Assembly (NCBI RefSeq): GCF_004564355.1
Contig: NZ_CP038266.1
Location: forward strand, 2,666,001 to 2,730,000
Source of the DNA: Microbacterium wangchenii
GTDB taxonomy: Bacteria; Actinomycetota; Actinomycetes; Actinomycetales; Microbacteriaceae
Direction: 5' to 3'
DNA: 64,000 nucleotides
This document shows, piece by piece, positions 7,990-60,446 of this stretch (its first letter is position 1; the number at the start of each line of letters is the position of its first letter). The notes under the pieces were generated by a model, which was given only the letters and a program-made list of their open reading frames with translations, had not been told where the DNA came from and searched no databases. A program made the translations under genes and the position numbers.

Positions 7990-8049
7990 CCCTCATTATC
8001 GGCACGGGCCAGGCCGGCCCGGCTTGCAAGGCGAACCGTCACGCATTGA

Positions 8050-8072
8050 ATGTCATCTATGCGTGACATACT
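8050..8072 (+). promoter_or_regulatory. Palindrome ATGTCA-N8-TGACAT overlapping the -10 of the LysE gene
   Basis: Perfect 6-bp arms at 8050-8055 and 8064-8069 overlap a -10 box CATACT (8067-8072). The ATG at 8079 follows after six bases, so the mRNA is probably leaderless. A protein bound to the palindrome would cover the promoter directly. Confidence 0.6.
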
Positions 8073-8078
8073 GACGCC

Positions 8079-17047: not shown

Positions 17048-20000
17048 TCAGCGGAAATCACGGGATGAGTGCGCCACGCCCACCCTCAGGTCATCGAATC
17101 GATCGGCGACGAGGTTCGTCACCCCCTCCACCGAGCGCTCCAGGATCCCGCGGACGATGAGGGCCGGCGACTCCCGCACGATGCGTCGGTGACGGTCCCA
17201 CACGCCGACCGAGCAGATCACGTTGACCAGCCCGTGCTCGTCCTCGAGGTTGAGGAACGTGATGCCCGATGCCGTCGCCGGTCGCTGCCGGTGGGTCACG
17301 AGCCCGGCGACCTCGACCCGGCGGCCGTTCTCGTGCGTGCGCAGCTCGCGCGAGGTGAGCACTCCGCGCGCGTCGAGCTGGGAGCGGTAATGCGCAAGCG
17401 GATGATCGCCCGGCGAGATGCCGGTCGCCCACAGGTCGGCGGCGAGCACCTCGTAGCTGGTGGGGTCGGGGAACAGGGGCGGCTGCACCGACACCATCGA
17501 CTCGGGCAGGTACTCGGCGCGATCCTGTGCGGCCGAACCGGCGCTCCAGATCGCCTCCCGGCGCGTGATGCCGAGGCACTCGAAGGCACCCGCGGTGGCG
17601 AGGGCCTCCAGCTGCGCGGCGGTGAGTCCGGTGCGGCGCACCAGGTCGCGCAGATCGCGGTACGGACCCGACGCCTCCCGCTCGGCCACGATGCGCTCGG
17701 CCGCCTTCGTGCCGATCCCGGTGACGGCGGCCAGCCCGAGGCGCACGGCGAACCGCCCGTCCCGGCGGTGCGCCTCCGACTCGTCCGGCTCGGTGGGGTC
17801 GAAATCGCCCACCGGCGGCTGCACTCGCTCGGCGCACGCCTGCCGCCCCGTCGGCGGAAAACGAGGGGATCGATCCGCAGCATCCTCGGTTCCCGGGATC
17901 CCCTCGGAATCCGCGTGCGGTTCGAGGAGGGCTTCGACTCCCGAGCGCAGCAGATCGGGGCGGCGCACCTCGACGCCGTGCCGGCGGGCGTCGGCGCTGA
18001 GGGTCGCCGGTGAGTAGAACCCCATCGGCTGGGCGCGCAGCAGTCCCGCCAGGAACGCCGCGGGGTAGTGCAGCTTGATCCACGAGCTGGCGTACACCAG
18101 CAGCGCGAAGGAGAGGGAGTGGGATTCGGCGAAGCCGAAGTTCGCGAACGCCTGGATCTTGTCGTAGATGCTGTCGGCCACCTCGCCGGTCAGGCCGTTT
18201 CGGGCCATGCCTGCGTACAGCTTCTCGCGGAGCTTCTCGATCCGCTCCACGCCGCGCTTGGACCCCATCGCCCGGCGCAGGAGATCGGCGTCCTCGGCCG
18301 TGCAGTCCCCCACCGCCACGGCCATCTGCATGAGCTGCTCCTGGAACACCGGCACGCCCATGGTCCGCTCGAGCACCGGGCGGAGCTTCTCGTGGGCGTA
18401 GGTCACCTTCTCCTGCCCGAGCTTGCGCCGGACGAACGGATGCACCGCACCGCCCTGGATCGGCCCGGGCCGCACGAGCGCGATCTGCACGACGAGGTCG
18501 TAGAACCGCCGCGGCTGCAGGCGCGGGAGCAGTCCCATCTGCGCGCGGGACTCGACCTGGAAGACCCCGATCGAATCGGCGCGGCACAGCATGTCGTAGA
18601 CGGCCTTCTCCTCCTTGGGGATCGTCGCGAGTTCCCACTCCTCCCCCGTGGCGTCGCGGATGAGGTCGAAGCAGTACTGCAGCGCGGCCAGCATCCCCAG
18701 GCCCAGAAGGTCGAACTTCACCAGCCCCATCCAGGCGGCGTCGTCCTTGTCCCACTGGATGACCGTGCGGTCCTCCATGCGCGCATGCTCGATGGGCACG
18801 ACCTCCCCCACGGGACGGTCGGTGAGCACCATCCCGCCGGAGTGGATCCCCAGGTGCCGCGGCGCCTTGAGCAGCTCGGTGGCGTACGCGAGCACCTGAT
18901 CGGGGATGTCGTGGTCGGCGCCGGTGTCCAGCGCCGCCCCCCAGCGCTCGACCTGCTTGGACCACGCGTCCTGCTGCCCCGGCGAATGCCCGAGGGCCTT
19001 GGCCATGTCGCGCACGGCGTTCTTCGGGCGGTATTGGATGACGTTGGCCACCTGCGCGGCGCGGTCGCGGCCGTATTCGCGGTACACCCACTGGATGATC
19101 TCCTCCCGGCGGTCGGAGTCGAAGTCCACGTCGATGTCGGGCTCCTCGTCGCGAAGGCTGGAGAGGAACCGCTCGAAGGGCAGGTCGTAGGCGATCGAGT
19201 CGACCGCGGTGATATCGAGCAGGAAGCACACCGCACTGTTGGCCGCCGACCCACGGCCCTGGCACAGGATGCCGCGGCGCCGAGCCTCCTGCACGATGCC
19301 GTGCACGATGAGGAAGTAGCCGGGGAAGTCCTTCATCTCGATCACCGCGAGCTCGCGCTCGATGCGGTCGCGGTCCTTCGGCGTCAGATCGGGGTACTTG
19401 CGCGGCACCGCCTCCCACACCAGGTGCCGCAGCCACGTCATGGGCGTGTGCCCCTCGGGAACCTGCTGCTTCGGCAGCGCGGGCTTGGCCCGCCGCAGGG
19501 GGAAGGCCAGCTCGTCGGCGAGCGTCACGGTGCGCGACACCGCGCCGGGGTAGCGCGCGAAGCGGCGGGCCATCTCCGCGCCCGAGCGCAGGTGCGCGCC
19601 GGCGTGGGCGGGCAGCCATCCGTCGATCTCGTCCAGGCCGCGGTTGGCGCGGACGGCGGCGACCGCCGCGGCGAGGAGCTCCCGTTCGGGCGCGGCGTAG
19701 TGCACGTTGTTGGTGGCCAGCACCGGAAGCCTCCGCTCGGCGGCGAGGGCGGCGAGCACGTCGTTCTGGCGGGAATCGAGCGGGTTGCCGTGATCCATCA
19801 GCTCCACATGCACCGCCTCCTGGCCGAAGAGCCCGACGAGCCGGTCGAGCTCCGCGGCCGCTGCATCCGCCCCGCCCTCGGCGAGCGCGCGGCGGACGGT
19901 GCCCTTGCGGCATCCGGTGAGCACCGCCCAGTGCGGATCGCGCGGACCGCCGGAACGCTCGGCGAGCTCGTCGAGGTCGTACACCGGCCGGCCCTTCTCC

Positions 20001-20500
20001 GCGCCCCGCAGCTGGGCGGCCGTGATCGCCGCCGCCAGACGGTGGTACCCCTCCTCCCCGCGGGCCAGGACGAGCAGGTGCGATCCGACCGGATCGGGTT
20101 CGCCGTTCTGCGGCCCTGGGAGCTCCAGCGACAGCTCGGCGCCGAACACCGTGCCCAGCTGCAGCGCCTCGGCCGCCTCGGCGAAGCGGACGATGCCGTA
20201 GAAGCCGTCGTGGTCGGTGACCGCGAGGGCGTGCAGCCCCAGCCGCTCGGCCTCCTCGGCCAGTTCCTCGGGCGAGGAGGCGCCGTCGAGGAACGAGTAC
20301 GACGAGTGCGCGTGCAGCTCCGCGTACGGCACCGTATCGGCGGGACGGTCGATGGCCGGGGGGACATAGGGCCCGCGCTTGTGCGACCACGCGGGGCTGT
20401 CGCCGCCGTCGGCGCCGGCGGGAACGGGGCGCGGTCGGCGCCGGTCGCTGAGGGTGCGCTCGATCTCCGACCACGGCACGGGCGGGTTATGGAAGCCCAT
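17048..20500 (-). CDS. dnaE2: Error-prone DNA polymerase DnaE2 (ImuC)
   Basis: 1150 residues. An N-terminal PHP domain (about 60-290) has YAELHAHSSYSFLDGA and TDHDGFYG. The C-family polymerase palm carries the catalytic PDIDVDFDSDRR near residue 450. Helix-hairpin-helix (AAERIVAEREASGPYRDLRDL) and OB-fold regions lie in the last 300 residues, and the beta-clamp motif of replicative DnaE is not evident. This is the catalytic subunit of the ImuA'-ImuB-DnaE2 mutasome, responsible for damage-induced mutagenesis and lesion bypass. It is the last gene of a LexA-controlled three-gene unit, 81 bp after imuB. GGAGCTG precedes the ATG. Confidence 0.96.
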   Translation of the reverse strand: MGFHNPPVPWSEIERTLSDRRRPRPVPAGADGGDSPAWSHKRGPYVPPAIDRPADTVPYAELHAHSSYSFLDGASSPEELAEEAERLGLHALAVTDHDGFYGIVRFAEAAEALQLGTVFGAELSLELPGPQNGEPDPVGSHLLVLARGEEGYHRLAAAITAAQLRGAEKGRPVYDLDELAERSGGPRDPHWAVLTGCRKGTVRRALAEGGADAAAAELDRLVGLFGQEAVHVELMDHGNPLDSRQNDVLAALAAERRLPVLATNNVHYAAPERELLAAAVAAVRANRGLDEIDGWLPAHAGAHLRSGAEMARRFARYPGAVSRTVTLADELAFPLRRAKPALPKQQVPEGHTPMTWLRHLVWEAVPRKYPDLTPKDRDRIERELAVIEMKDFPGYFLIVHGIVQEARRRGILCQGRGSAANSAVCFLLDITAVDSIAYDLPFERFLSSLRDEEPDIDVDFDSDRREEIIQWVYREYGRDRAAQVANVIQYRPKNAVRDMAKALGHSPGQQDAWSKQVERWGAALDTGADHDIPDQVLAYATELLKAPRHLGIHSGGMVLTDRPVGEVVPIEHARMEDRTVIQWDKDDAAWMGLVKFDLLGLGMLAALQYCFDLIRDATGEEWELATIPKEEKAVYDMLCRADSIGVFQVESRAQMGLLPRLQPRRFYDLVVQIALVRPGPIQGGAVHPFVRRKLGQEKVTYAHEKLRPVLERTMGVPVFQEQLMQMAVAVGDCTAEDADLLRRAMGSKRGVERIEKLREKLYAGMARNGLTGEVADSIYDKIQAFANFGFAESHSLSFALLVYASSWIKLHYPAAFLAGLLRAQPMGFYSPATLSADARRHGVEVRRPDLLRSGVEALLEPHADSEGIPGTEDAADRSPRFPPTGRQACAERVQPPVGDFDPTEPDESEAHRRDGRFAVRLGLAAVTGIGTKAAERIVAEREASGPYRDLRDLVRRTGLTAAQLEALATAGAFECLGITRREAIWSAGSAAQDRAEYLPESMVSVQPPLFPDPTSYEVLAADLWATGISPGDHPLAHYRSQLDARGVLTSRELRTHENGRRVEVAGLVTHRQRPATASGITFLNLEDEHGLVNVICSVGVWDRHRRIVRESPALIVRGILERSVEGVTNLVADRFDDLRVGVAHSSRDFR

Positions 20501-20581
20501 CAGCTCCCCTCTCCGTGCGGCCTCGCCGGCGCCGGCCCCGGGGGTGCCGGCGACGCGGAGGGGCGGCGGGCGGAGCGAGGG

Positions 20582-22171
20582 TCAGTCATAGCGCCCCTCC
20601 GCGGTCCACGCGCCGTCCTCCTCCACCAGCAGCCACGCCGTTCCGTCGTCGTCGACCACCTGGAAACGGTGCGCGCGACGACGGCGCGCCGCATCCCACC
20701 CCCGCTCGCGGATCGGCCACGGCCCCGCCCATGAGCGGATGCGGCTGCGCCGCGCCCCCGCGGCGAGGAAGGCCGGCGGGGCGCTCAGAACCTCCCGCTC
20801 CCCCACCACCACCGTCGCCCCCGCGACGTCGGTGACCTCCACCGTTCGCGGCTCGGGGTAGACGGTGGTCGGCAGCGGATCGGGCAGGCTTCCCGGCCAC
20901 GGGCGCGCACGTTCCTTCGCCACGATCGCCCGGTCACCCCACGGCACGAGCACCTGCCGCTCGACCAGCCAGCGACCGCCGCCGATCGCCGGGGTGAGCA
21001 CGCCCCGGTGACCGAGCATCGCCTGCACGCGCGAGAGGGCGTGGTGCACCCGTTCCTCGGGGCCCGAGCCGAACAGCCCGATCACGTGATGGGAGGCCTC
21101 GTCCACGGCCTCGGGCGAGATCCGCACGCGCGCGACGCCGCTGCCCAGGATGCTCTGGGCGTCTTCGGCGAGCTGCCATCGCACCCGGTCGACGACGGCT
21201 GCCGCATCGAAGGATCCCGGATGCAGCCACACCCGTTCGCTGCGCTCCCCGCGGTCTCCGGTGAGCTCGACGCGCAACTCCGTGCACACCAGCCGTCGCT
21301 CGCCCAGCGCCGAGACGAACTCGTCGGCGGCGATGCGCATGCCGAAGGCGATCTGGTCGGCCAGTTCCAGAGGCGGCTCGAAGACCACCTCACGGTGCAG
21401 CTCAGGTGGCGGGGTGCGCGGCTCGATCGGGCGGGAGTCGCGTCCGCCCGCGAGCGCGTGCAGCCGCACCCCCTGTTCGCCGAACCGTTCGCGCACGCGG
21501 TCGACGCCCATCGCCGCGAAGGCACCGAGAGTATGCACGCCCAGCCGCGCGAGCAGCTCGGGGAGACCGGCCTCGCGGGAACCCGAGCGTCCCGGCGACC
21601 CCGCCGGGAACCCGGTGGAGGCATCGAGGACGGCCACCGACAGCGGCGCGAGGAATTCCGCCGCCTCCCCCGCCGGCACGACCAGTACGGGATCGTCGGG
21701 GCGGGCGGCTCGGGCGGCCAGCTGGGCGGTGAACAGCCCGTCGGCGATCCCCGCGCACACGGCCGCCACCCCGCCTTCTCGAAGCGCGGTCACGAGGGTG
21801 CGCGCCGCCTCCGCCTCTCCCCCGTAGTAGCGGGCGGGCCCGCGCGCCCGCAGGGCGCACAGCCCGGGACGCACGATCTGCACGCCCGGGGCGAGTTCTT
21901 CGATCCGGGCGACCAGAGGCGCGAAGGCACGCGCATCACGCACGGGATCGGCCGGGACGACGCTCAGCCCCGGACAGGCCGCTTGTGCGTCTCGCCGGCG
22001 CTGGCCACGTCGTACGCCCGCGGCCCTCGCCGCATCCGAGCACGCCACCACGACGTTGTTCTCGAACACCGCGACGGGGGCGCCGGGGTCGAGCGCGGCG
22101 CCGTCCAGAAGGAGTGCGGTCACCGGCCAGTCGGGGAACCACAGCACGAGACTGCGCACGGGTGACAGCAC
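20582..22171 (-). CDS. imuB: ImuB, Y-family polymerase-like mutasome subunit
   Basis: 529 residues. The Y-family fold is recognisable, but the N-terminus reads RSLVLWFPDWPVTALL rather than the catalytic Asp-containing strand of active Y polymerases, as is typical for ImuB, which is a catalytically dead scaffold. ImuB links DnaE2 to the beta clamp and to ImuA'. A C-terminal stretch (about 400-529) contains the polymerase-associated region found only in ImuB. It directly abuts imuA' (stop and start one base apart) and precedes dnaE2, so the three form one operon. Confidence 0.93.
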   Translation of the reverse strand: MLSPVRSLVLWFPDWPVTALLLDGAALDPGAPVAVFENNVVVACSDAARAAGVRRGQRRRDAQAACPGLSVVPADPVRDARAFAPLVARIEELAPGVQIVRPGLCALRARGPARYYGGEAEAARTLVTALREGGVAAVCAGIADGLFTAQLAARAARPDDPVLVVPAGEAAEFLAPLSVAVLDASTGFPAGSPGRSGSREAGLPELLARLGVHTLGAFAAMGVDRVRERFGEQGVRLHALAGGRDSRPIEPRTPPPELHREVVFEPPLELADQIAFGMRIAADEFVSALGERRLVCTELRVELTGDRGERSERVWLHPGSFDAAAVVDRVRWQLAEDAQSILGSGVARVRISPEAVDEASHHVIGLFGSGPEERVHHALSRVQAMLGHRGVLTPAIGGGRWLVERQVLVPWGDRAIVAKERARPWPGSLPDPLPTTVYPEPRTVEVTDVAGATVVVGEREVLSAPPAFLAAGARRSRIRSWAGPWPIRERGWDAARRRRAHRFQVVDDDGTAWLLVEEDGAWTAEGRYD

Positions 22172-22894
22172 TCAGCCCACCGCCCTCACCTCGGACAGCT
22201 CCGGCACCGCCTCCAGGCGGGGCCGCGCGGCGGCGGCCGGCCCGAGAAGCGACACGGTGCCGTCGGCGGCGGGCAGCAGCATCCGCGCCCTGCGCGCCGT
22301 CGGCGACCGGCGGCTCGTCACCGACACGGTCAGTTCGCGTCCGGCGAGATACCCGTGCCCGGCGCCCAACCCGGCCCAGCGCGGATCGGCGACGTCGATC
22401 GCCGCCTCCGCCTGCGGCCACGGCCCCTGCACGAGCAGCACCGTCCCGCGGTCGCGCAGGCGGGCCGCCAGACGAGACACCGCGCTCTCGGTCACGCGCG
22501 CCGGCGGACGCACGGCGACCACGGGCATCACTTCGGCGATCGTCGCGGTGATCGCCAGCCACCGCGGACCGGGCTCGGGCACGAACACGAGCCGGTCGAG
22601 GTCGAGCCCGTACCGCTCGGCGGCCTCGGCGCCCAGGTCGGGCATGCCCACCGCCGCACACCAGGCGCCGTCCTGCGAGGGCCGGGCCATCAGCGCCAGC
22701 AGCAGGGCGGTCGAGGACGCGAGGGCGTAGGCGGATCCGGGGCGCAGCCCGCCGCCGGGGAGAAGGCCGGCGAAGGCGGGGTGCGTCGGCAGAACGGGGG
22801 CGTCGAGGCGACGGCCCTGCATCCGCTCGAGCTGCGCACGCAGCTCGCTCACGTCACGCAGCGCCTCCGCCTCGGTCCGCACGATCGCCCTCAC
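22172..22894 (-). CDS. imuA: ImuA', RecA-like mutasome subunit
   Basis: About 240 residues. The sequence resembles a reduced RecA core, with GLLPGGGLRPGSAYALASST in place of a Walker A loop and no intact GKT. It ends in VSLLGPAAAARPRLEAVPEL. ImuA' supports DnaE2/ImuB-dependent mutagenesis. Two in-frame GTGs compete: 22900 directly touches the -10 box, while 22894 lies six bases from it and would be leaderless, so 22894 is preferred. No ribosome binding site exists for either. The promoter contains a perfect LexA box, so expression is SOS-controlled. Confidence 0.85.
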   Translation of the reverse strand: MRAIVRTEAEALRDVSELRAQLERMQGRRLDAPVLPTHPAFAGLLPGGGLRPGSAYALASSTALLLALMARPSQDGAWCAAVGMPDLGAEAAERYGLDLDRLVFVPEPGPRWLAITATIAEVMPVVAVRPPARVTESAVSRLAARLRDRGTVLLVQGPWPQAEAAIDVADPRWAGLGAGHGYLAGRELTVSVTSRRSPTARRARMLLPAADGTVSLLGPAAAARPRLEAVPELSEVRAVG

Positions 22895-22900
22895 TCCCAC

Positions 22901-31810: not shown

Positions 31811-33508
31811 CTAGGCCGGCGGGGGCGTGAGCCACGCGTACCCGTGCGGGGGCAGGCGCAGCGCGGTGACCGTCTCGCCCGTGAGCACGTCGGTGCCGGC
31901 GAGGGAGGGCAGCTCCACGACCTCGTCGCTCACGTTGATCGCCGCGACGATCTCGTGCACCGTCCCGGCGGCGCGGCGCACGACGAAGGCGCGCTCGTCG
32001 AGCGCCTCGACGGTCTGATCCGCGAACGGCGAGAAGCCCGGCTGCGTGCGCCGCACCGACAGCAGGTGCCGGAGGCCGGCGAGCATGCGCGCACGGCGCG
32101 GGATCTCGGCCAGTTCGGCCGCGAGCAGGTCGGCGTCGAGGACCTGCCGGTTGATCCGGCGGGCGATCCCGCTGTGCTGCATGCCCTGCTCGTCCTGACC
32201 GGAGCCGAAGAGGGAGTGGTAGTACACCGCGGGCACGCCCACCACCGACAGCAGGATGGCGTGGGCGGCCAGCCCCCGCACGACCGCGGAGGCGTCGGGG
32301 TCGGGGTCGGCGGGATCCACGAGCGCGTCGAGGAAGTTCGTGTTGAGCTCGTACACGCCCTCGGTGCCGTCGGGGCGTCGCGCCATCGACACGCGGCCGC
32401 CGCGGGCACGCGTGCGCTCGACGAGCAGGTCGCGGTCGGCGTCGGAGAGGAGGCCCACGGTGGGGCGCAGCCCGATCCCGTCATGGCTGGCGAGGAAGTT
32501 GAACCACGTCGCCGCCGGGCCCACCGGGCCGATGCCGCTCGCCCACCGGGTCAAGGCGCCTGCCCGGCCGGTGACGAAGGCGTGCAGGACGAGCGGCGGG
32601 AGGGCGAACTGGTACACCATGTGCGCCTCGTCCGAGCCGTCGCCGAAGTACGTGATGTTGTCGGCGTGCGGCACGTTGGTCTCGGTAAGCAGGCGCGTGC
32701 CCGGGGCCACCGCATCCACGATCGCCCGCCATATGCGGATGACGGCATGCGTCTGCGGCAGGTGGATGCACGAGGTGCCCGACTCCTTCCACAGGTAGCC
32801 GATGGCGTCCAGGCGCACCGTGGTGGCGCCCCGCGACACGTATCCCAGCAGGACATCGGTGAGATCCAGCAGCACGGCCGGGGTGCGCGGATCGACGTCG
32901 ACCTGGTCGTCGCCGAACGTCGTCCACGCGCGCACCTGTGTGCCGTCGGGGCGCTCGTAGGTGTGCAGCAGCGGTGTCGTGCGCGGGCGCACCACGTGCG
33001 ACACGTCGAAGTCCGGCCCCGGCTCGAGGAAGTAGCCGGCGTAACGCGGGTCACGGTCAAGCCACCGGCGGAACCACGTGCTCGAACTGGACACGTGGTT
33101 GGCGACGAAGTCCAGGGCGAGCGCGTAGTCCTGACGCAGCTGCGCGATGTCGTCCCACGTCCCCAGGGACGGATCGACCTGGCGGTGATCGGTGACGCCG
33201 AACCCGTCGTCGGAGGTCCAGGGGTAGATGGGCAGCAGGTGCACATCGGTCACGACATCGCCCACGTGCGCGCGCAGGATACCGGCGAGCGTCTGCAACG
33301 GCACCTCGCCCTCGCGGTGGAACGAGCCGCCGTACGTGATGAGGTAGGCGGTGCCCTCGTCCCACCGGGCGGGGCCTGTCGTCGCGAGGGGCTCCGCCCA
33401 CCGCGCCGCGAGGCGGACGAGATCGTCGAGCACGGCGGTGGCATCCCCGGGGTACAGCATCGCCACCAGCGGCGCGATGCGCTCGCGCAGGCGATCCAGC
33501 TCAGGCAT
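31811..33508 (-). CDS. GH13 sugar phosphorylase (subfamily 18 type)
   Basis: 565 residues. The (beta/alpha)8 catalytic residues of GH13 are present: VRLDAIGYLWKE (nucleophile Asp), LLTETNVPHADN (acid/base Glu) and FNFLASHDGIGLRP (stabilising Asp). The start LVAMLYPGDATA, LLPIYPWTSDDGFGVTDHRQVDP and SGQDEQGMQHSGIARRINR match sucrose phosphorylase-like enzymes. At 565 residues it is longer than sucrose phosphorylases (about 490) and fits the glucosylglycerate or related phosphorylases of GH13_18. The enzyme would split an alpha-glucoside with phosphate to give glucose 1-phosphate. It is the last gene of the operon and overlaps the alpha-galactosidase gene. Confidence 0.85.
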   Translation of the reverse strand: MPELDRLRERIAPLVAMLYPGDATAVLDDLVRLAARWAEPLATTGPARWDEGTAYLITYGGSFHREGEVPLQTLAGILRAHVGDVVTDVHLLPIYPWTSDDGFGVTDHRQVDPSLGTWDDIAQLRQDYALALDFVANHVSSSSTWFRRWLDRDPRYAGYFLEPGPDFDVSHVVRPRTTPLLHTYERPDGTQVRAWTTFGDDQVDVDPRTPAVLLDLTDVLLGYVSRGATTVRLDAIGYLWKESGTSCIHLPQTHAVIRIWRAIVDAVAPGTRLLTETNVPHADNITYFGDGSDEAHMVYQFALPPLVLHAFVTGRAGALTRWASGIGPVGPAATWFNFLASHDGIGLRPTVGLLSDADRDLLVERTRARGGRVSMARRPDGTEGVYELNTNFLDALVDPADPDPDASAVVRGLAAHAILLSVVGVPAVYYHSLFGSGQDEQGMQHSGIARRINRQVLDADLLAAELAEIPRRARMLAGLRHLLSVRRTQPGFSPFADQTVEALDERAFVVRRAAGTVHEIVAAINVSDEVVELPSLAGTDVLTGETVTALRLPPHGYAWLTPPPA

Positions 33509-34799
33509 CCGCGGGTCCTTCCAGCAGATCCCGCACCAGCTGCAGTCCGCGTCCGTCCAGTTCCGCGATGCGGTCGGAGAACCCCCGGATCCCCGGGGCG
33601 GCCTGGACGACGGCGGCCCATTCCTCGCGCAGCGCGAAGTCGGGGCGCGCCACGAGGCAGTCCGGGTCGGTCGTCCACAGGCGCCCGTCCTGCCACGCCC
33701 GCGCCTCGAGCGACATGCGGCCGCGGAGGCCCTGTGATCCGTCCTCGCCGCCCTCGTGGAACGTGTCCGACGCGATGCGCATCGCGTCGACGAGCCCGAC
33801 GCTCGGCAGCAGCGGCGCCCCGCACCCCAGCAGGTACGCGTCCTCGCCGAGCACCTCCCGCACCAGCTGCAACCCCGCCCGGTATGCCGCGAGAGGCGTC
33901 GCGTCGGGGTCGTACCGCGCGCCGGGAACCGCGCCCGCGAAGAGGAAATCGAGCTTGACGTAGCCGACTCCCCACTCGCGCACGCGCGTGAACACCTCGG
34001 TGAGGTACCCGCGCACACCGGGGTGGGTGAGGTCGAGCCCGACGAGATCATCGCCCCAGTTGTACCCTGCTTCGCCGACGAGCCACTCCGGATGCTGCCG
34101 CGCGACCGCCGAGGCCGCGCCGACGACGAACGGGGCCAGCCACAGGCCCGGCCGCCGTCCGGCGTCGCGGATCCGGGCGACCGCATCCGCCACCGAGCCG
34201 AAGCGCTCGTTCTCCGCGGTCCACTCCCCCGTGCCGCGGCTCCAGCCGTCGTCGATCTGCACGACGTCGACGGGGAGGTCGCGCGCACGCAGGTCGTGGA
34301 GGTTCTCCTGCACGTCGGCGGCGGTGACATCCTCGAAGTACCGGTACCAGCTGCACCACACGCGCGGGGGCTCCCCGCCCGCGCGCGCGCCGGCAGCTCG
34401 GCCCATCCGGTCACCGAAGGCGCGGAGCGCCTCCTCTCCGGGATCGGCGCCGGGTGCCGCCGAGGTCGTCCAGGATGTGACCGCGCCGCTGGCCGACACC
34501 GTCACCCGCCCGTCCCGCCACCGCGCGCGGATGGAGGGGACCTCCGTCGAGGCATCGGTGACGCCGTACGTGCGCACAGGCGAGCCGTCGCCGGGATCCA
34601 CCACGAGCAGTCCCTCGCCCTGCACCGCGTCGTCGGCGAGCGCGACACCCGGCCGGAAGCGCATGAGGTGCTGCCACCGCTCCTGCGGGCGATGGATCTC
34701 CTCGCCCGCGCGGTACCACGTGGTCGGGCTCCAGCTCTGCCATCCCTCCCCATAGACGCGCGCATCAGGTCCGACGGCGACCTCGTCGACGTCGATCAC
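33501..34799 (-). CDS. GH36 alpha-galactosidase-like protein
   Basis: 432 residues. GH36/GH27-clan features are clear: RVWCSWYRYFEDVTAADVQENL, VQIDDGW, GLWLAPFVVGAASAVARQHPEW, the nucleophile in VGYVKLDFLFAGAVPGARY and the acid/base in MRIASDTF. The N-terminal EGWQSWSPTTWY is typical of GH36, but the usual large beta-sandwich domain is missing, so it is short for the family (often 550-750). It would remove alpha-galactosyl (or similar alpha-linked) residues. GTG 34799 overlaps the previous stop by 4 bp (GTGA). No signal peptide: it acts in the cytoplasm after uptake. Confidence 0.87.
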   Translation of the reverse strand: MIDVDEVAVGPDARVYGEGWQSWSPTTWYRAGEEIHRPQERWQHLMRFRPGVALADDAVQGEGLLVVDPGDGSPVRTYGVTDASTEVPSIRARWRDGRVTVSASGAVTSWTTSAAPGADPGEEALRAFGDRMGRAAGARAGGEPPRVWCSWYRYFEDVTAADVQENLHDLRARDLPVDVVQIDDGWSRGTGEWTAENERFGSVADAVARIRDAGRRPGLWLAPFVVGAASAVARQHPEWLVGEAGYNWGDDLVGLDLTHPGVRGYLTEVFTRVREWGVGYVKLDFLFAGAVPGARYDPDATPLAAYRAGLQLVREVLGEDAYLLGCGAPLLPSVGLVDAMRIASDTFHEGGEDGSQGLRGRMSLEARAWQDGRLWTTDPDCLVARPDFALREEWAAVVQAAPGIRGFSDRIAELDGRGLQLVRDLLEGPADA

Positions 34800-35887
34800 C
34801 GGCCCCTCCCGCCTCGCACGGCCGAACGGGTCAGTTCGAGGCCGGCCGGTCGCTCCGGCGTGCCCCCGTTCGCCGCCGATGCTGCAGCGGCCATCCCCAG
34901 CCGCGCCGACACGAGCACGTGGGCGGCGGAGTTCTCCGGTTCCCGGTCCTCGGCCACGGCAGTGAGCAGCTCCCCCATGGCCCCGGCGAACCCGTCCGGA
35001 AACCACTCACCCTCCGCCTCGATCGACACGCGCTCACCGTCGCGCTCGATCTCGACCCAGTCGCTGCCGCGGAGCACGCTGCCGCGGATCGTGCCCGCGG
35101 TGCCGTGGATCCAGAACGGACACCCGCCGGCACCGGTGCGCACATCGCCGACGACGCGGATGGCTGCCGTCGCTCCGGAGGAGACGGCGATGTGGATGCT
35201 CGCCTGCCACGGGTTCTCCGCATCCGCCGGCTGCCCCGGCACGCGTGAGTCGTGGGCGGCGACCGACACGACGCGGGAGCCCTCCAGCCAGCAGCGCGAG
35301 ATGTCGATCCAGTGCGCGAGGTAGTCGTTCACGAGCATGTGCGGCACGTCATCGAACGGGGTGCCCGCCAGCGGCGGCAGTGGCTTGTCGTGCAGGTGGG
35401 TGACGCCGACGACCTCCCCGATCTCGCCGGCCCGCGCGAGCAGCGTCGCCACGCGCCACGGCGGCGCCCAGCGGGCGTTCATGTTGCCGGCCACCCGGAT
35501 GCCGCGGGCCGCGGCGAGCGCGAGCACCTCTGCGAGCCGGTCGGCCTCGTGCGGCTCGAGGACGAGCGGCTTCTGGGCGAGGACGTGCTTGCCGGCCGCC
35601 ACGGCCGCGGCGATGAGGTCCACGCGTCCGTGCGGGCCGGTGGCGATGTCGACGACGGCGACGGCGGGGTCGGCCAGGAGGTCTTCCACCCGATCGTGCA
35701 CGGTGGCGATGCCGAACTGCCCGGCCAGGGTCCGCCCCGACGACGGGGTGCGCGACGCGATCGCGACCACCGGGATCCTCCAGCGCGCGTACGCGGGGAG
35801 GTGGGCGCTGCGCGCGATGGCGCCCGCGCCGATCAGACCGACCCCGGGCGGGTCCGGCGGCACGTGAGGGCGGGAGTCGGGGATCAC
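34796..35887 (-). CDS. Gfo/Idh/MocA-family oxidoreductase
   Basis: 363 residues. The N-terminal Rossmann fold has GLIGAGAIARSAHLPAY, followed by VDIATGPHGRVDLIAAAVAAGKHVLAQKPL, whose lysine in the QKP motif is the usual catalytic residue. A C-terminal alpha/beta domain (GRV...HDKPLPPLAGTPFDD...WIDI) closes the active site. Such enzymes oxidise or reduce sugars, inositols or amino sugars with NAD(P). It overlaps both neighbours by 4 bp, in the middle of the sugar operon, so it probably acts on a product of the two glycoside enzymes. Substrate unknown. Confidence 0.9.
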   Translation of the reverse strand: MIPDSRPHVPPDPPGVGLIGAGAIARSAHLPAYARWRIPVVAIASRTPSSGRTLAGQFGIATVHDRVEDLLADPAVAVVDIATGPHGRVDLIAAAVAAGKHVLAQKPLVLEPHEADRLAEVLALAAARGIRVAGNMNARWAPPWRVATLLARAGEIGEVVGVTHLHDKPLPPLAGTPFDDVPHMLVNDYLAHWIDISRCWLEGSRVVSVAAHDSRVPGQPADAENPWQASIHIAVSSGATAAIRVVGDVRTGAGGCPFWIHGTAGTIRGSVLRGSDWVEIERDGERVSIEAEGEWFPDGFAGAMGELLTAVAEDREPENSAAHVLVSARLGMAAAASAANGGTPERPAGLELTRSAVRGGRGR

Positions 35888-36942
35888 GTCGCCCGCTCCG
35901 GGGCGGCCTCGAATCGGAGGATCGCCTGCAGGATGCCGGGATCGCCCCGGTCCAGGCGCTCGAACACCGTCGCCACCTCGGCCGCCGCCACGACGTCGGT
36001 CACGAGGGCCGCGGCATCCACGCGCCCGGACAGGATCAGGTGCATGACGGTGCGGACGAGACGCGCCTGGTCCCAGCGGCCGCCGAGCCCGACGGGCACG
36101 CCCGCGATCTGGCTGGCCACGAGGCGGACGTGGTTGTGGTGGAACTCCTCTCCCAGACGCAGATGCTCCGCACCGCCCTGGTAGAAGCCCGCCGCCGCCA
36201 CGAGGCCGTCGGCGACGACGGATCGCACCGCCTCGTGCAGGGCGCGGTCCGAGCCGGAGAGCTCGATGGCGCTGTCCGCGCCGCCCGCCGTGCGCTCGCG
36301 GATGACCGCCCCGGCGCCGCGTGGGTCGCGCGCGTCGACCACCACGGCGGCACCGAAGCGCTCGGCCATCGCCAGGCGCGCGGGCTGCGTGTCGGCGGCG
36401 AGCACGGATCCTCCGGCCAGGGTCGCCAGTCGCGTCGCGAGCAGCCCGATCACCCCCTGGCCGAAGATCGCGACGGTCTCACCCAGCCGCACGTCGGCGG
36501 CGAGCACCGCGTTCAATGCGATCGCGCCCACGCGGGCGAACGTGCCGAGGATCGTGTCGGCGCCGGGCGGCAGCACCCGCCCGGCGAGAGCGGAGGCGGG
36601 CAGGACGGCATCGCTGCGGTGCCCCCAGATGCCGTGGACCACGTCGCCGACGACCACGCCGTCCACACCGTCGGCGACCTCCACCACCTCACCCACTTCG
36701 GAGTAGCCCCAGCCCCGCACCGGGTAGGCGACGCTCGGCTCTCCCGGGACGAAGATGCGCCGCGCCGGATCCCACGTCGAGGTGAGGTACGGGTTGGTGC
36801 CGCGGTAGGCGGTCAGCTCGGTGCCGGCGGAGATGCCGGAGTACCACGTCGCCACCCGCACTCCGCCGAGCACGAGCGGCGCGGGGGCGATCTCGACGAG
36901 TTCGACCCTGCCGGGGCCGGCGAATTGGACGATCTGGGGCAC
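35884..36942 (-). CDS. MDR-superfamily (zinc-type) alcohol dehydrogenase
   Basis: 352 residues. The GroES-like N-domain has YSGISAGTELTAYRG where typical zinc alcohol dehydrogenases carry a Cys ligand; this SGISAGTE form is seen in the BchC-like branch. It may therefore not bind catalytic zinc in the standard way. The NAD(P) domain has AIFGQGVIGLLATRLATLAGG. The closing ILSGRVDAAALVTDVV is normal. The gene overlaps the Gfo/Idh gene by 4 bp (ATGA) and belongs to the sugar operon, where it probably oxidises a polyol or sugar released by the glycosidases. Confidence 0.87.
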   Translation of the reverse strand: MPQIVQFAGPGRVELVEIAPAPLVLGGVRVATWYSGISAGTELTAYRGTNPYLTSTWDPARRIFVPGEPSVAYPVRGWGYSEVGEVVEVADGVDGVVVGDVVHGIWGHRSDAVLPASALAGRVLPPGADTILGTFARVGAIALNAVLAADVRLGETVAIFGQGVIGLLATRLATLAGGSVLAADTQPARLAMAERFGAAVVVDARDPRGAGAVIRERTAGGADSAIELSGSDRALHEAVRSVVADGLVAAAGFYQGGAEHLRLGEEFHHNHVRLVASQIAGVPVGLGGRWDQARLVRTVMHLILSGRVDAAALVTDVVAAAEVATVFERLDRGDPGILQAILRFEAAPERAT

Positions 36943-36975
36943 GGAGCTGCGCCTTCCTTCCGGACGGTGGGGCCG

Positions 36976-37896
36976 TCAGCCCTTTTCCGCCCCTGCCGTG
37001 AGCCCGCCCACGAGGAGGCGCTCCGAGGCGAAGAACAGGATGATGATCGGCAGGGTGAGGATGACGGACCCGGCCATCAGCACGGTCGTGGGCACCTCGA
37101 TGCTCCCCGACAGCTGCGACAGACCGAGGGAGACCGTCCACGACTCCCGCCGTTCGACGAGGAACAGCAGCGCGAAGAGGAACTCGTTCCACGCGATCAT
37201 GAAGATGAACAGCCCGTTGGAGACGATGGCCGGCATCGCCAGCGGGATGCTGATCTTCCGCATCGTCTGCAGCCGGGTGCACCCGTCGATCGCCGCGGCC
37301 TCCTCGAGGGAGACGGGGATCGTGGCGAAGTAGTTGCGCAGCGTGTAGATCGACACGGCGACGACCTGCGAGACGTACACGATGAGCAGGCCCACGAGAG
37401 ACCCACGCAGTCCGATCTGCGTGAACACCACGAACAACGGCACGGCCAGCAGGATGCTGGGGAAGAAGTACACCGCCAGGAACAGCGCCGACACCTGCCG
37501 GTGGCCGAAGAAGCGCAGCCGGCTGACCGCGTAGGAGCCGGGAATCGCCACGAGCAGCGACAGCACCACCGTCCCGAGGGCGACCAGGAGCGAATTGCGC
37601 ATGAACTCGATGAAGCCCTGACCGCCGTCCGAGACCGGGGCGAGGATGTCGAGGTACGTGGACAGGTCGAGCTCGTCGAGCGAGATCCACAGTGCACCCG
37701 GCTCCTGCAGCAGGGAATCGAGGGTGCGGAAGCTCAGCAGCACCATGTAGTAGAAGGGGAACACCGCCACGATCAGCAGCAGGACGATCACGACCGGCCG
37801 CACGATCCGCAGGACCGTGTTCTCGATCCGGTCGCGGCCCACTCCGCGACGTGCGTTTCCCGTGCGCGGCGCCGACTCCAGCAGAGACGTGGTCAT
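36976..37896 (-). CDS. Carbohydrate ABC transporter permease (MalG type)
   Basis: 306 residues, six membrane helices. The EAA loop EEAAAIDGCTRLQTMRKISIP is the ATPase-contact motif. N-terminal residues to about 33 are polar. This is the second permease of a CUT1 importer; it overlaps the first permease gene by 4 bp (ATGA). Its stop lies 33 bp before the dehydrogenase start. The operon contains no ATPase, as is common in Actinobacteria where a shared MsiK-type ATPase serves many importers. Confidence 0.92.
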   Translation of the reverse strand: MTTSLLESAPRTGNARRGVGRDRIENTVLRIVRPVVIVLLLIVAVFPFYYMVLLSFRTLDSLLQEPGALWISLDELDLSTYLDILAPVSDGGQGFIEFMRNSLLVALGTVVLSLLVAIPGSYAVSRLRFFGHRQVSALFLAVYFFPSILLAVPLFVVFTQIGLRGSLVGLLIVYVSQVVAVSIYTLRNYFATIPVSLEEAAAIDGCTRLQTMRKISIPLAMPAIVSNGLFIFMIAWNEFLFALLFLVERRESWTVSLGLSQLSGSIEVPTTVLMAGSVILTLPIIILFFASERLLVGGLTAGAEKG

Positions 37897-38912
37897 GCCT
37901 GCTCCTCCCGCCGGCCGAATAGCCGCAGGTACACCGTCACCAGCACCGCCAGGATGAGCGCGAGGATCAGCGCCTGGGCCGCGGCGGAGCCGATGTCGCC
38001 GCGAGCGGTGAGGTAGTCGAAGACGCGCACCGACACCACCTGCGTGCCGGCGCCGCCACCGGTGAGGAGGTAGATGTCGTCGAAGTTGTTGAACGTCCAG
38101 ATGAACCGCAGCACCGTCAGCACGGCGATGGTGGGGAGCAGCTGCGGCAGCAGGATGTGCCGGAAACGCTGCGTCGGCGTGGCGCCGTCGATGAGTGCTG
38201 CCTCATCCAGCACTCCCGGGACGGCCTGCAGTCGTGCCGTCAGGAAGAGGAAGGCGAAGGGGAACGACCGCCACGCCTCGAAGAGGATGACGGTGATCAG
38301 CGCGATCGGAAGGTCGATCTGCAGGCCGAAGAAGGGCACCGGCAAGGACCGCTGCGACAGGAACGCTACCGGATCCTCCCAGCCCAGCACCGTGCGGCCG
38401 AACCAGTTGACCAGTCCGAACTGGGGGTTCAGCAGCGTCGACCACACGAACGTGGCGGCCACCACGGGCGCCACGTAGGGAAGCAGGAGCGCGGCGCGGA
38501 TGAGCCCCCGGCCGCGGAAGGGCTTGCGCAGGGCGAGGGCTGCGACGAGCCCGACGCCGATCGCCAGGGCCGTGCCGCCGACGGCGTACACCAGCGTCGT
38601 CCACAGCGCCCCGAGGAACCCGGGCGACGTGAGGACGTTGACGAAGTTGTCGAGGGTGTACTGACCGAAGAACCCGGTACCGCGGATGTTGATGAGCCGC
38701 ACCCGCTGGAACGCGAGGGCGACAGCCCACAGGATCGGCAGCACGACCGCGACGCCGACGATGATGACAGTCGGGGAGATGAGCAGGAGCCCTGCCCGGT
38801 TCTCATCCCGCCCCTGACGCGAGCGCCGCGCGCGCACCGTCCCGCGGGGTGCGGCCGGGCCCGAGGCGGGGGCCGGGCCGCTCAGGCCCGTCCCGCCGGC
38901 CAGCTGGGTCAC
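37893..38912 (-). CDS. Carbohydrate ABC transporter permease (MalF type)
   Basis: 339 residues starting at a GTG that overlaps the upstream stop (GTGA). After a polar N-terminal 40 residues there are six helices, with the EAA loop DEAALIDGATPTQRFRHILLPQL. It is the first permease of the CUT1-type importer. Longer upstream reading frames exist but run antisense-like through the binding-protein gene and lack protein character. Confidence 0.9.
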   Translation of the reverse strand: MTQLAGGTGLSGPAPASGPAAPRGTVRARRSRQGRDENRAGLLLISPTVIIVGVAVVLPILWAVALAFQRVRLINIRGTGFFGQYTLDNFVNVLTSPGFLGALWTTLVYAVGGTALAIGVGLVAALALRKPFRGRGLIRAALLLPYVAPVVAATFVWSTLLNPQFGLVNWFGRTVLGWEDPVAFLSQRSLPVPFFGLQIDLPIALITVILFEAWRSFPFAFLFLTARLQAVPGVLDEAALIDGATPTQRFRHILLPQLLPTIAVLTVLRFIWTFNNFDDIYLLTGGGAGTQVVSVRVFDYLTARGDIGSAAAQALILALILAVLVTVYLRLFGRREEQA

Positions 38913-40303
38913 TGGAGCGACTCCGCGATGGAGCGCACCGCCTCCGCGGCCTGCTCGGCGGCGGTGGCCGGGTCGGCGCCCTGGGACACCTCGTTGACGG
39001 CAGTGGCGACGGGGAGCTCCCCCTGCAGCGCACCGAGGAGGTCGCCCTGACCCTGCGTGATGCCCCAGCGGGCGAGGTCCTCGGGGCCGGCGGCGACGGC
39101 CTCGAGCACGTCCGCAGTGTAGAAGTCCGACAGCGGGGCCTTGGTGTCCACACCCGCCGGCAGGGTCGCCCACGCATCCGAGAACACGGTGGGCTCTTCC
39201 GGGGTGCCGGTGCGCACCGGCACCTTGCCCTCGGGGGCGATGGCGATCCAGTCCTCGTATCCGTCGCTCATCATGTACTCGATGAACGACTGAGCATCCT
39301 CGGTGTTGGCCCCGGCCGTGACGGTCCACGAGGTGATTTCGCCGAACTGTGCGGGGGTGTCCGAATCCGGGCCGGCGATGGAGGTCACGACCCCCGTGTT
39401 GGCGGCGAGGAAGGACGGGTCGGCCGCGCACTCCGGGCACGAGGGCTTGGCGTCCTCCCGCAGGCCCGCCAGCTCGTCGAGCACGAAGCTCGACCAGATG
39501 AACATGGCGGCGTCGCCGGCGAAGTAGGTGGCGCGGGTGGTGTCCACGTCCTGCGCACCGGGCACGGAGTAGTCGCTGGTCAGCTCGCCGTAGAAGGCGA
39601 ACGCGTCCACGCACGGGCCCGAGTCCAGCTCGACCTCGCCGTCCTCCGAGACCAGCTCGCACCCGTTGCCCAGCCCGATCTGCTCGAACGTCTGCTCAGT
39701 GAAGGCGTCGCCGGGGGCCGTTGCCCCCACGAAGCCCGCCAGGTCGGGGCTGTCCAGCGTGCGCGCGGCCTCAAGGATCGCGTCGTAGGAGTCCGGCGCA
39801 TCCAGCCCTGCCGCCTCGAACAGGTCGGTGCGGTAGAACAGCATCTGCGTCCAGGACTCGCTGGGAACGGCCAGAAGGTCATCGCCGTCGGAGACGAGTT
39901 CCAGCGCCCGCTCGGAGAAGGTGGCGGAGTCCAGGTCGTCGATGACGGCTCCCACCGCCTCCGGATCGACCAGTTCGTTCGAGGAGAGCGTGCGCACCTG
40001 CGGAAGCGAGATGCCGCCGATGACATCCGGCAGGTCGCCTGCGGCTGCGGCGGAGGTGATCAATTGGCTGAACTGGTCCTCGGCCACCGACACGAGCTCC
40101 ACCTCGACGCCGGACTCCTCGGTGAACGCATCGACGATCGCCTGGGTGGCAGCGACCCGGTCGGGCAGATCCTCCTGCAGCCAGAAGGTCAACCCGTCCC
40201 CGCCGCCTCCCCCGCCGCCGTCGCCGGAACTGGTGCAGCCGGAGAGCACGAGCGCCGCCGTCCCCATCACCGCCAAGCCCACTGCCGTTGCACGTCGAGC
40301 CAT
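38909..40303 (-). CDS. Extracellular sugar-binding lipoprotein
   Basis: 464 residues. A lipoprotein signal peptide with lipobox LSGC at about residues 20-23 is followed by a Gly-rich linker and a CUT1 solute-binding fold (DGLTFWLQEDLPDRVAATQAIVDAF, AAAGDLPDVIGG, ARTLDSPDLAGFVG, WGITQGQGDLLGALQGELP). Four additional cysteines (e.g., PSCPECAAD and GNGCELV) may form disulfides in the mature protein. First gene of the sugar operon. GAGGAGG precedes the ATG, and the promoter lies about 50 bp upstream. Confidence 0.92.
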   Translation of the reverse strand: MARRATAVGLAVMGTAALVLSGCTSSGDGGGGGGGDGLTFWLQEDLPDRVAATQAIVDAFTEESGVEVELVSVAEDQFSQLITSAAAAGDLPDVIGGISLPQVRTLSSNELVDPEAVGAVIDDLDSATFSERALELVSDGDDLLAVPSESWTQMLFYRTDLFEAAGLDAPDSYDAILEAARTLDSPDLAGFVGATAPGDAFTEQTFEQIGLGNGCELVSEDGEVELDSGPCVDAFAFYGELTSDYSVPGAQDVDTTRATYFAGDAAMFIWSSFVLDELAGLREDAKPSCPECAADPSFLAANTGVVTSIAGPDSDTPAQFGEITSWTVTAGANTEDAQSFIEYMMSDGYEDWIAIAPEGKVPVRTGTPEEPTVFSDAWATLPAGVDTKAPLSDFYTADVLEAVAAGPEDLARWGITQGQGDLLGALQGELPVATAVNEVSQGADPATAAEQAAEAVRSIAESLQ

Positions 40304-40346
40304 GATGCGCCTCCTCGCGCCATCGAACGGGATGTCGGCCTGCCGA

Positions 40347-40393
40347 CATATGCCTAGAAGCTAGACATTATTGGCGTAGCTGTCAAGCATATG
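40347..40393. promoter_or_regulatory. Inverted repeat CATATGC/GCATATG flanking the operon promoter
   Basis: Perfect 7-bp arms (40347-40353 and 40387-40393) bracket the reverse promoter with a 33-bp spacer. In a GC-rich genome these AT-rich arms stand out and are candidates for the ROK regulator. The right arm contains an ATG that is in frame with the ROK gene. Confidence 0.5.
40358..40386 (-). promoter_or_regulatory. Promoter of the sugar operon
   Basis: On the reverse strand TTGACA (40386-40381), a 17-bp spacer, then TAGCTT (40363-40358). The -35 is a perfect match. The start site would be near 40351, giving a leader of about 48 nt with GAGGAGG before the binding-protein ATG. Confidence 0.75.
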
Positions 40394-40420
40394 ATCGAGA
40401 CGTCGAACGAGGGGGTCACG

Positions 40421-41569
40421 ATGTCCGGTCCGGGCGATGTGCTGGAACTGATCCGCACGGGGCGCGCGCTCACGCGGGGCGACGTCCTGGAGATCACGGG
40501 CCTGTCGCGGATGACGGTGTCCACGCGCATCGACGCCCTGCTGGAAGCCGGGCTCATCGTGGAGAACGGCACCGAGCGTCCCGCCTCGGGCCGTCCCTCA
40601 CGGCTGCTGGAGTTCAACTCCGCGCGGGCCACCGTGCTCACCGCCGCGGTCGACACGACCCACACCATGGTCGCCCTGACCGATCTGGCCGGACGTCTTC
40701 TCGCCGAGGAGCGCATCGAGGTCGCCGTCGCCGACGGCCCGGACCGGACCCTCGACGAGATCGCCGCCACCGCGCGTCGGGTCCTCGTCGCGGCGGAGAC
40801 TCCGCTGGAGCGCGTCGCGGCGATCGGCATCAGCATCCCCGGGCCCGTCGACCCCGACACCGGGCGCCCCAGTCAGCCGCCCATCATGCCGGGGTGGGAC
40901 GCGTATCCGATCCCCGATCACCTGCGCGATGCCCTGGGTATCCCCGTCCTCGTCGCCAACGACGCCGATGCCGCCGCCCTCGGCGAGCAGCGCGCCGCAC
41001 ATGCCGATTCACGCGCGCTGTGCTTCATCAAAGTCTCCTCCGGCATCGGCGCGGGCATCGTCATCGGGGGGCGGGTCTACCAGGGCACCGACGGCGGCGC
41101 CGGAGACATCGGCCACGTCAAGCTCGCCGGGCACGACGACGAGGTGTGCCAGTGCGGGGCGCACGGCTGCCTGGCGGCCGTGGCCTCCGGACGCGCCGTG
41201 GCGCGGGCCCTCTCGGCGATCGGCAAGAACGCCGAGTCCGGCTCCGACGTCGGGGCGTACCTCGCGGCGGGCGACCCGGATGCGGCTGCCCTCACCCGGG
41301 CGGCGGGCCGCGTGATCGGCGAGGTCGTGGCCACCCTGGTGTCGGTGCTGAACCCGGGAGAGGTCGTGCTGGGCGGGATGCTCGCATCCGCCCCTCTCCT
41401 GGCCGGCGTGCGCGAGACGCTGTACCCCCGCTCCCTGCCGCGCGCGACGCGCCACCTCACGGTCAGCCAGTCCACGCTGGGAGAGCATGCCGGGATCGTC
41501 GGCTTGGCCACCCTCGTGGTGGAGCGGGAGTACTCCGCCGTCGCCGTCAACGCCGCCCTCAGCAGCTGA
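40421..41569 (+). CDS. ROK-family transcriptional regulator
   Basis: 382 residues. The N-terminal winged helix (about 1-60: DVLELIRTGRALTRGDVLEITGLSRMTVSTRIDALL) precedes a ROK domain. The sugar kinase-like ATP fold contains AIGISIPGPVD, VANDADAAALGEQ and the zinc cluster CQCGAHGCLAAVASG (CxCGxxGC). Such proteins repress sugar operons and are released by a sugar ligand. ATG 40421 has GAGGGGG six bases upstream and matches the helix start; ATG 40391 is the alternative. It is divergent from the sugar operon and is its likely regulator. Confidence 0.9.
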   Translation: MSGPGDVLELIRTGRALTRGDVLEITGLSRMTVSTRIDALLEAGLIVENGTERPASGRPSRLLEFNSARATVLTAAVDTTHTMVALTDLAGRLLAEERIEVAVADGPDRTLDEIAATARRVLVAAETPLERVAAIGISIPGPVDPDTGRPSQPPIMPGWDAYPIPDHLRDALGIPVLVANDADAAALGEQRAAHADSRALCFIKVSSGIGAGIVIGGRVYQGTDGGAGDIGHVKLAGHDDEVCQCGAHGCLAAVASGRAVARALSAIGKNAESGSDVGAYLAAGDPDAAALTRAAGRVIGEVVATLVSVLNPGEVVLGGMLASAPLLAGVRETLYPRSLPRATRHLTVSQSTLGEHAGIVGLATLVVEREYSAVAVNAALSS

Positions 41570-59225: not shown

Positions 59226-59342
59226 GGTTCGGGTTGCGTGGCATACTGAGGATCGCGCCCGATGGCGGGCGTGCGGGCCAGCCCCCGCTCATCCTCACTA
59301 CGGATCGTCCGGCACGTACCTGCCGGTGAAGGAGAAGAGAAC

Positions 59343-60446
<1,104 letters not shown>

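Follow-up and report, generated by a model that had tools for sequence, protein, structure and literature searches.

A relative of the Escherichia coli ycj gene set in Microbacterium wangchenii, with a possible route for gulosides on a glucosylglycerate core

Introduction

The closest described counterparts of the operon treated here are the ycj genes of Escherichia coli, in which RefSeq labels ycjQ a D-guloside 3-dehydrogenase, ycjR a 3-dehydro-D-guloside 4-epimerase and ycjS a D-glucoside 3-dehydrogenase. A study on YcjN describes a thermal-shift screen in which no ligand stabilized the protein by more than 2 degrees, its authors noting that binding is not excluded thereby (PMC11543891), and another paper suggests that kojibiose is perhaps not the natural inducer of YcjW, but that some kojibiose derivative is (PMC6599011). 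We analyzed a seven-gene sugar operon in a 64-kb stretch of the Microbacterium wangchenii genome (contig NZ_CP038266.1, positions 2,666,001 to 2,730,000; hereafter the window, to which all coordinates refer unless a contig is named). Judging from its predicted proteins, it is an actinobacterial relative or variant of the ycjMNOPQ(R)S gene set. We propose, with the chances evenly poised, that it would break down an outer alpha-D-guloside carried on glucosylglycerate, by way of an inversion at C3 that turns the guloside into a galactoside. A first-pass annotation had put the operon forward as a candidate for a new catabolic pathway. What stands of this is the variant with GH36 and Gfo/Idh, of which we found no description in the literature searched; the operon is not a free-standing novelty but belongs, as a variant, with the guloside (ycj) set of E. 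coli.

Operon structure and conservation

The operon and its divergent regulator span positions 31811-41569. The minus strand carries, from 5' to 3', the genes for a lipoprotein solute-binding protein (SBP), permease 1, permease 2, an MDR dehydrogenase, a Gfo/Idh dehydrogenase, GH36 and GH13, and a ROK gene lies on the plus strand. All genes named in the first-pass annotation were recovered as open reading frames (ORFs) and by Pfam, and its description of seven coupled genes with GH36, GH13, MDR and Gfo/Idh members was borne out by the gene calls and Pfam. The features are as follows.

38909-40303, minus strand: lipoprotein SBP, YcjN-like; Pfam SBP_bac_1/8, lipobox LSGC
37893-38912, minus strand: ABC permease 1, YcjO-like; Pfam BPD_transp_1, 34% to YcjO
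36976-37896, minus strand: ABC permease 2, YcjP-like; Pfam BPD_transp_1, 37% to YcjP
35884-36942, minus strand: MDR dehydrogenase, YcjQ-like; SGISAGTEL motif, proposed guloside 3-dehydrogenase
34796-35887, minus strand: Gfo/Idh/MocA dehydrogenase; Pfam GFO_IDH_MocA, proposed 3-keto-galactoside reductase
33501-34799, minus strand: short GH36 alpha-galactosidase of the Thermotoga GalA type; Pfam Melibiase, match to 1zy9 at E 6e-59
31811-33508, minus strand: GH13_18 phosphorylase of the glucosylglycerate phosphorylase type; start ATG 33508
40421-41569, plus strand: ROK-family regulator, divergent from the operon; Pfam ROK (170.7 bits) and HTH_24
40358-40386, minus strand: promoter-like element of the operon, read from the sequence; -35 TTGACA at 40381-40386, -10-like TAGCTT at 40358-40363, spacing 17

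Genes overlap by 4-8 bases at five of the six junctions, and the gap between the MDR and permease genes is 33 bases. An 867-aa ORF covering GH13 was rejected as a single protein, being an open-frame extension; ATG 33508 is the likely start, since a purine-rich stretch lies ahead of it and it overlaps the GH36 stop. An alternative start of the regulator is possible at the upstream ATG 40391. The TTGACA box stands ahead of the SBP gene, and 7 of the 15 intergenic stretches that were compared share the 9-mer GCTTGACAG around it. TAGCTT in exactly this form, at a spacing of 17, was read here and in L112 only, other relatives differing.

A species-level genome collection was scanned with an MDR alignment, and the best 80 of at least 577 loci were kept; all counts out of 80 refer to these. 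GH36 was called at 45% or more and YcjR at 30% or more, aligned over at least 35% of the reference. The nearest named loci were from Microbacterium. The 80 loci divide into 54 with YcjR, 21 with GH36 and Gfo/Idh, none with both and five with neither, and a homologue of the ROK regulator with at least 40% identity occurs in 72 of them. Moreover, when GH36 was searched for in 299 genomes of the family, all eight genes turned up, in unchanged order, in three further genomes (L026, L027 and L028). Given this kept order and the recurrence of the GH36, Gfo/Idh and MDR set in 21 of 80 loci, the operon is a real, conserved block, beyond chance.

Exchange of YcjR for GH36 and Gfo/Idh

YcjR is absent from the window operon and from all 21 GH36 loci among the best 80, while the window-type Gfo/Idh is found in every one of these 21. 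Of the five loci with neither marker, four are from Jiangella (three of these with a long GH36) and one lies on a cut contig. In one YcjR locus, L176, a sequence matching a long GH36 at 30% lies some 10 kb off, where the stretch ends, and was left out of the count. A set of 48 whole-genome loci, overlapping partly with the genomes of the best 80, gave 14 with YcjR and no GH36, 14 with GH36 (3 short, 11 long) and no YcjR, one with both and 19 with neither, 15 of the last having only remote MDRs (32-41%).

The MDR phylogeny was built by a quick method, with SH-aLRT support only, from 54 thinned rows (21 of the 54 YcjR loci, all 21 GH36 loci, four Jiangella, the window, YcjQ and six others). The window kind forms one clade (support 93) among YcjR loci, with Jiangella as a second group and L089/L090 as a third. 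These two loci, and by similarity L198, carry long GH36-MDR-Gfo/Idh sets without YcjR on another MDR branch, and the 9 kb around their MDR showed no glycerate enzyme. Perhaps an alpha-galactosidase gene joined this MDR three times.

Two controls were independent of the MDR. Of 394 genomes of the class, 3 (its own, G258 and G514) contain relatives of the Gfo/Idh at E <= 1e-60, each time beside GH36 and MDR (L028, L076), and the enzyme looks special to the cluster. GH36 relatives at E <= 1e-90 are more widespread, with 29 places in 27 of the 394 genomes, three of them inside the cluster. At the 16 inspected of the 26 other places, neither MDR, window-type Gfo/Idh, YcjR, GH13 nor GH63 was found nearby (0/16), and most carry ABC permease homologues. 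Related GH36 enzymes elsewhere therefore manage without the dehydrogenases, and GH36 as such does not need them. Both controls left our weighing of the readings as it was.

As for the enzymes themselves, the MDR shares 28% identity with YcjQ over 319 aa (E 1.7e-23) and a GTE motif, a likeness at the family level only. It has no cysteine in its 352 aa, which makes the usual cysteine-bound zinc sites impossible. It scores far below the cut-offs of the NCBIfam MDR models, IolM included (56.2 bits, cut-off 450), and a structure-database search found no close solved relative. The Gfo/Idh protein aligns with YcjS over 152 aa only (26% identity) and is likewise weakly similar to the YcjS-type proteins of sister loci. 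Its K-D-H set is intact, with QKP and D188-xxx-H192 in 22 of 22 sequences. The best NCBIfam match, IolG, stops at 78.6 bits (cut-off 355). Compared by profile, the solved structures nearest to it include 1,5-anhydrofructose reductases, a sugar 3-ketoreductase and DgpA. In GH36 the motifs KxDFLF and MRIxxDT are conserved, the Asp of the latter, presumably the acid/base residue, aligning with the position at which chain 6gta carries a D->A change, and D284 and D345, the catalytic pair of nucleophile and acid/base, are present in 22 of 22 sequences.

The first-pass annotation had let the two dehydrogenases act on a leftover polyol. This now appears less likely, as the pair accompanies GH36 and occupies the place that the YcjR epimerase has in relatives. 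Because the pair travels with GH36, stands in the place of YcjR and has a similar counterpart, next to a long GH36, in three loci in which a glycerate enzyme went undetected, its most likely task is to re-model the outer sugar ahead of the GH36 cut, and that the change is a redox one, i.e. an epimerization, we consider fairly probable.

The glycerate core

The GH13 protein is 42% identical over 541 aa to E. coli YcjM, labeled a glucosylglycerate phosphorylase in RefSeq. Marks of these phosphorylases are a (T/S)ETN motif and a loop-A Glu where most others carry Gln (PMC7178133). The window protein has TETN at T275-N278 and the loop-A Glu at E387, and both TETN and the loop-A YE are kept in 18 of 18 proteins (the window protein, 16 sister-locus GH13s and YcjM). 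The sucrose phosphorylase model yields 163.8 bits against a cut-off of 334.4, and loop A reads GVYE, which does not match the sucrose phosphorylase motif N(L/V)D(I/L/V)YQ. As far as model score and motifs tell, the enzyme is not a sucrose phosphorylase, and use of raffinose or sucrose was rejected on these grounds. The first-pass annotation had already held raffinose to be a poor fit, rightly so by this evidence.

GH13 is present in 16 of the 21 Gfo/GH36 loci, and the other five have two GH63 genes instead. A GH63 enzyme of the kind here called GH63b is also found in 51 of the 54 YcjR loci. Out of seven GH63b proteins scored, one, from L136, reaches 650.7 bits and clears the cut-off of 550 for glucosylglycerate hydrolase. 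The paper on the crystal structure of the GH63 hydrolase MhGgH lists Tyr36, Trp40, Tyr88, Arg216 and Tyr375 as glycerate contacts and Asp182 and Glu419 as catalytic, and adds that most of these residues are also found in mannosylglycerate hydrolases (PMC6608630). Ten checked positions, the MhGgH glycerate contacts among them, are identical in 56 of 56 GH63b proteins; as most of them are common to mannosylglycerate hydrolases, these residues do not fix the sugar.

A glycerate kinase homologue lies directly downstream of GH13 in 4 of the 21 Gfo/GH36 loci (Pfam, run on two, confirmed both), and in the genome of the window itself a GarK-like glycerate kinase clusters with galT-galK and a LacI-type regulator (G000:C1 3353803-3358300, locus L197), the kinase, galT and galK lying inside one 4.6-kb stretch. 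A glucosylglycerate-like core, guessed at in the first-pass annotation, agrees with the GH13 signatures and with the GH63 replacements of glucosylglycerate-hydrolase type in relatives, and use of a glycosyl-glycerate by the operon appears well supported and highly probable.

Other glycosidases were seen in these loci. GH63a, of about 400 residues, occurs as a third glycosidase near MDR and Gfo/Idh in L125, L129, L132, L136 and L174, and two aligned copies lack Tyr88 and Tyr222 of the glycerate site. A further GDE_N_bis/MGH1-like enzyme, found in 22 of the 54 YcjR loci (Pfam on three), is a candidate for a second glucosyl cut.

Proposed pathway and alternatives

From gene content, family membership, active-site signatures and the swaps between loci, which were read directly, we infer each reaction below, along with the stereochemistry at C3 and the linkage. 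The lipoprotein and the permeases, with a shared MsiK ATPase, would import an alpha-D-gulosyl compound built on glucosylglycerate, under regulation by the ROK protein. The YcjQ-like MDR would then oxidize C3 of the gulosyl unit with NAD+. D-gulose is the C3 epimer of D-galactose (PMC4011222), and the 3-keto-guloside and the 3-keto-galactoside are therefore the same compound. Gfo/Idh would reduce C3 on the opposite face to give an alpha-D-galactoside, the two dehydrogenases together acting as a redox-neutral C3 epimerase. GH36 would release galactose to the Leloir enzymes, and GH13 would phosphorolyze the leftover glucosylglycerate to glucose 1-phosphate and glycerate, the latter passing to glycerate kinase. 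In relatives with YcjR the same keto intermediate would be inverted at C4 to a glucoside instead, GH36 standing in for YcjR in loci of the window type.

Several points weigh against this proposal. The MDR is only distantly similar to YcjQ, at 28% identity, and Gfo/Idh does not seem a clear YcjS orthologue, the resemblance being weak; the roles assumed for YcjQ, YcjR and YcjS, including the stereochemistry of YcjQ, go beyond their RefSeq labels. GH36 could cleave an alpha-galactoside without any dehydrogenase. Among the matches listed from the literature searched, no natural gulosyl or galactosyl glycerate appeared. Six of the seven GH63b proteins scored at 301-374 bits, under the equivalog cut-off of 550. 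Regarding the survey, the presence of the MDR in the 80 loci is no evidence, as it was what picked them out, the 80 being the top scorers among at least 577; the window kind being one clade, the exclusivity counts are not independent and the 21 loci amount to one event. Gfo/Idh was undetected in the stretch for 11 of the 54 YcjR loci. Finally, the draft contig L208 carries a YcjR fragment together with GH36, and no Gfo/Idh was found there; the YcjR frame (7987-8454 of G999:C199), between MDR and GH36, matches residues 3-106 of about 270 only and runs into the GH36 gene; it is either what the replacement left behind or the product of a faulty assembly.

A simpler substrate would be a plain alpha-galactosyl-glucosylglycerate, cut directly by GH36 and then by GH13, with MDR and Gfo/Idh salvaging an oxidized or epimeric form or acting at another carbon atom. 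The Thermotoga maritima GalA (TmGalA) active site kept in GH36, by which a galactoside needs no prior change, and the glucosylglycerate phosphorylase signatures of GH13 both suit this. Against it, the window-type Gfo/Idh is with GH36 in 21 of 21 MDR loci and outside such clusters in none of the 394 genomes, all 16 inspected places of related GH36 do without it as plain galactoside operons would, and MDR, Gfo/Idh and a long GH36 also occur together in L089, L090 and L198, where the glycerate enzyme was undetected. We regard this substrate as rather improbable. The same three loci, showing that the parts can separate, lend something to the idea of two parallel substrates served by one transporter, i.e. 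free glucosylglycerate for GH13 and a separate guloside or galactoside for MDR, Gfo/Idh and GH36. Nevertheless, 75 of the 80 loci have YcjR or GH36, and 72 of these (51 of 54 and 21 of 21) also contain a homologue of a glucosylglycerate-cleaving enzyme; we think such a division unlikely.

Galactinol, given as an example substrate in the first-pass annotation, or another galactosyl-inositol fares worse. GH36 would free inositol for IolG/IolM-like dehydrogenases, and IolG is indeed the best NCBIfam match of Gfo/Idh, with IolM matched by the MDR; but both scores fall far below their cut-offs, on which account inositol use was rejected, and neither the GH13/GH63 nor the YcjR swap is explained, making this very unlikely. 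An operon for raffinose or melibiose that includes a sucrose phosphorylase, suggested by GH36 adjoining GH13_18 as in known raffinose loci, is hardly credible in view of the model score, of TETN and the loop-A Glu in place of the sucrose phosphorylase motif, and of two dehydrogenases left without a role.

Transporter, ATPase and other loci

The best solved relative of the SBP is E. coli YcjN (8vqk, E 5.6e-34), with 27% identity over 370 aa. Positions conserved to at least 90% within each kind of locus yet different between kinds number 3 of 352 in the MDR and 1 of 464 in the SBP. The test is strict and both sequences otherwise vary widely; the near-absence of such positions fits one shared substrate, to which we attach little weight. 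The operon contains no ATPase gene. Elsewhere in the window are:

59284-59340, plus strand: msiK leader RNA, Rfam RF01747 (59 bits), preceding a shared sugar-ABC ATPase
59343-60446, plus strand: MsiK/UgpC-type ATPase; Pfam ABC_tran, OB_MalK and TOBE_2

This ATPase likely energizes the transporter of the operon and is likely shared by several importers. A homologue (69%) adjoins the cluster in one of the 80 loci (L123, Nocardioides lijunqiniae).

Other arrangements around the MDR were observed. In four Jiangella loci (L130, L133-L135) an MDR of this family neighbors a DHDPS-type aldolase and a second ABC importer; two of the four also have SDRs and three have a full-length GH36, perhaps a galactonate-type route. 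Loci L077-L083 and L106-L110 share one genus code, and the named contigs among them are Jiangella. Remote MDRs (32-41%) occur in L092-L105, with Gfo/Idh nearby in 9 of 14 and YcjR and GH36 undetected in these loci; a pair similar to this MDR and Gfo/Idh also adjoins YcjR clusters in Nonomuraea (e.g. L140). Away from the sugar operon, window positions 17048-22900 (minus strand) hold, by its look, a putative mutasome gene set of the DnaE2/ImuB/ImuA type.

Comparison with known systems

At the level of single enzymes, GH36 has the catalytic Asp pair and flanking motifs of Thermotoga maritima GalA, but is shorter in its N-terminal part (432 aa against a chain of 564 residues). The Gfo/Idh pyranoside dehydrogenases and reductases share the K-D-H set with the window protein, although they are remote relatives. 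The identity to YcjM, TETN and the loop-A Glu liken GH13 to glucosylglycerate phosphorylase (GH13_18, EC 2.4.1.352), as far as sequence can tell. With MhGgH the link is indirect, in that GH63 relatives with all checked glycerate contacts replace GH13 in 5 of 21 sister loci, whereas the window operon encodes no GH63 and uses another glycosidase family.

Tentatively, the operon may represent a new route for rare alpha-D-gulosides, in which C3 inversion to the galactoside lets a common alpha-galactosidase replace YcjR, and the substrate still missing for the E. coli ycj genes may be an undescribed alpha-D-gulosyl-glucosylglycerate. From the same start compound, E. coli would then arrive at a kojibiosyl-glycerate for YcjT and YcjM to finish, which fits both the kojibiose-derivative view of the YcjW inducer and the YcjN screen without a hit. 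No paper on 3-oxidation of galactosides was found in the literature searched. From bacteria, 3-ketolactose is a known product of chemistry at this position. If true, the proposal gives a testable answer to what the poorly understood E. coli ycj genes are for. Comparison across actinobacteria predicts gulosides on glucosylglycerate as a class of compounds and 3-keto-galactoside reduction as the activity of Gfo/Idh, and one pathway step would have been replaced by unrelated enzymes, YcjR in one case and GH36 with Gfo/Idh in the other.

Set against E. coli ycjMNOPQRSTU as a whole, the window operon has YcjM-, YcjN-, YcjO-, YcjP- and YcjQ-like proteins and a Gfo/Idh, the last not clearly orthologous to YcjS. 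It differs in having a ROK regulator where E. coli has LacI, and in carrying GH36 instead of YcjR, the kojibiose phosphorylase YcjT and YcjU.

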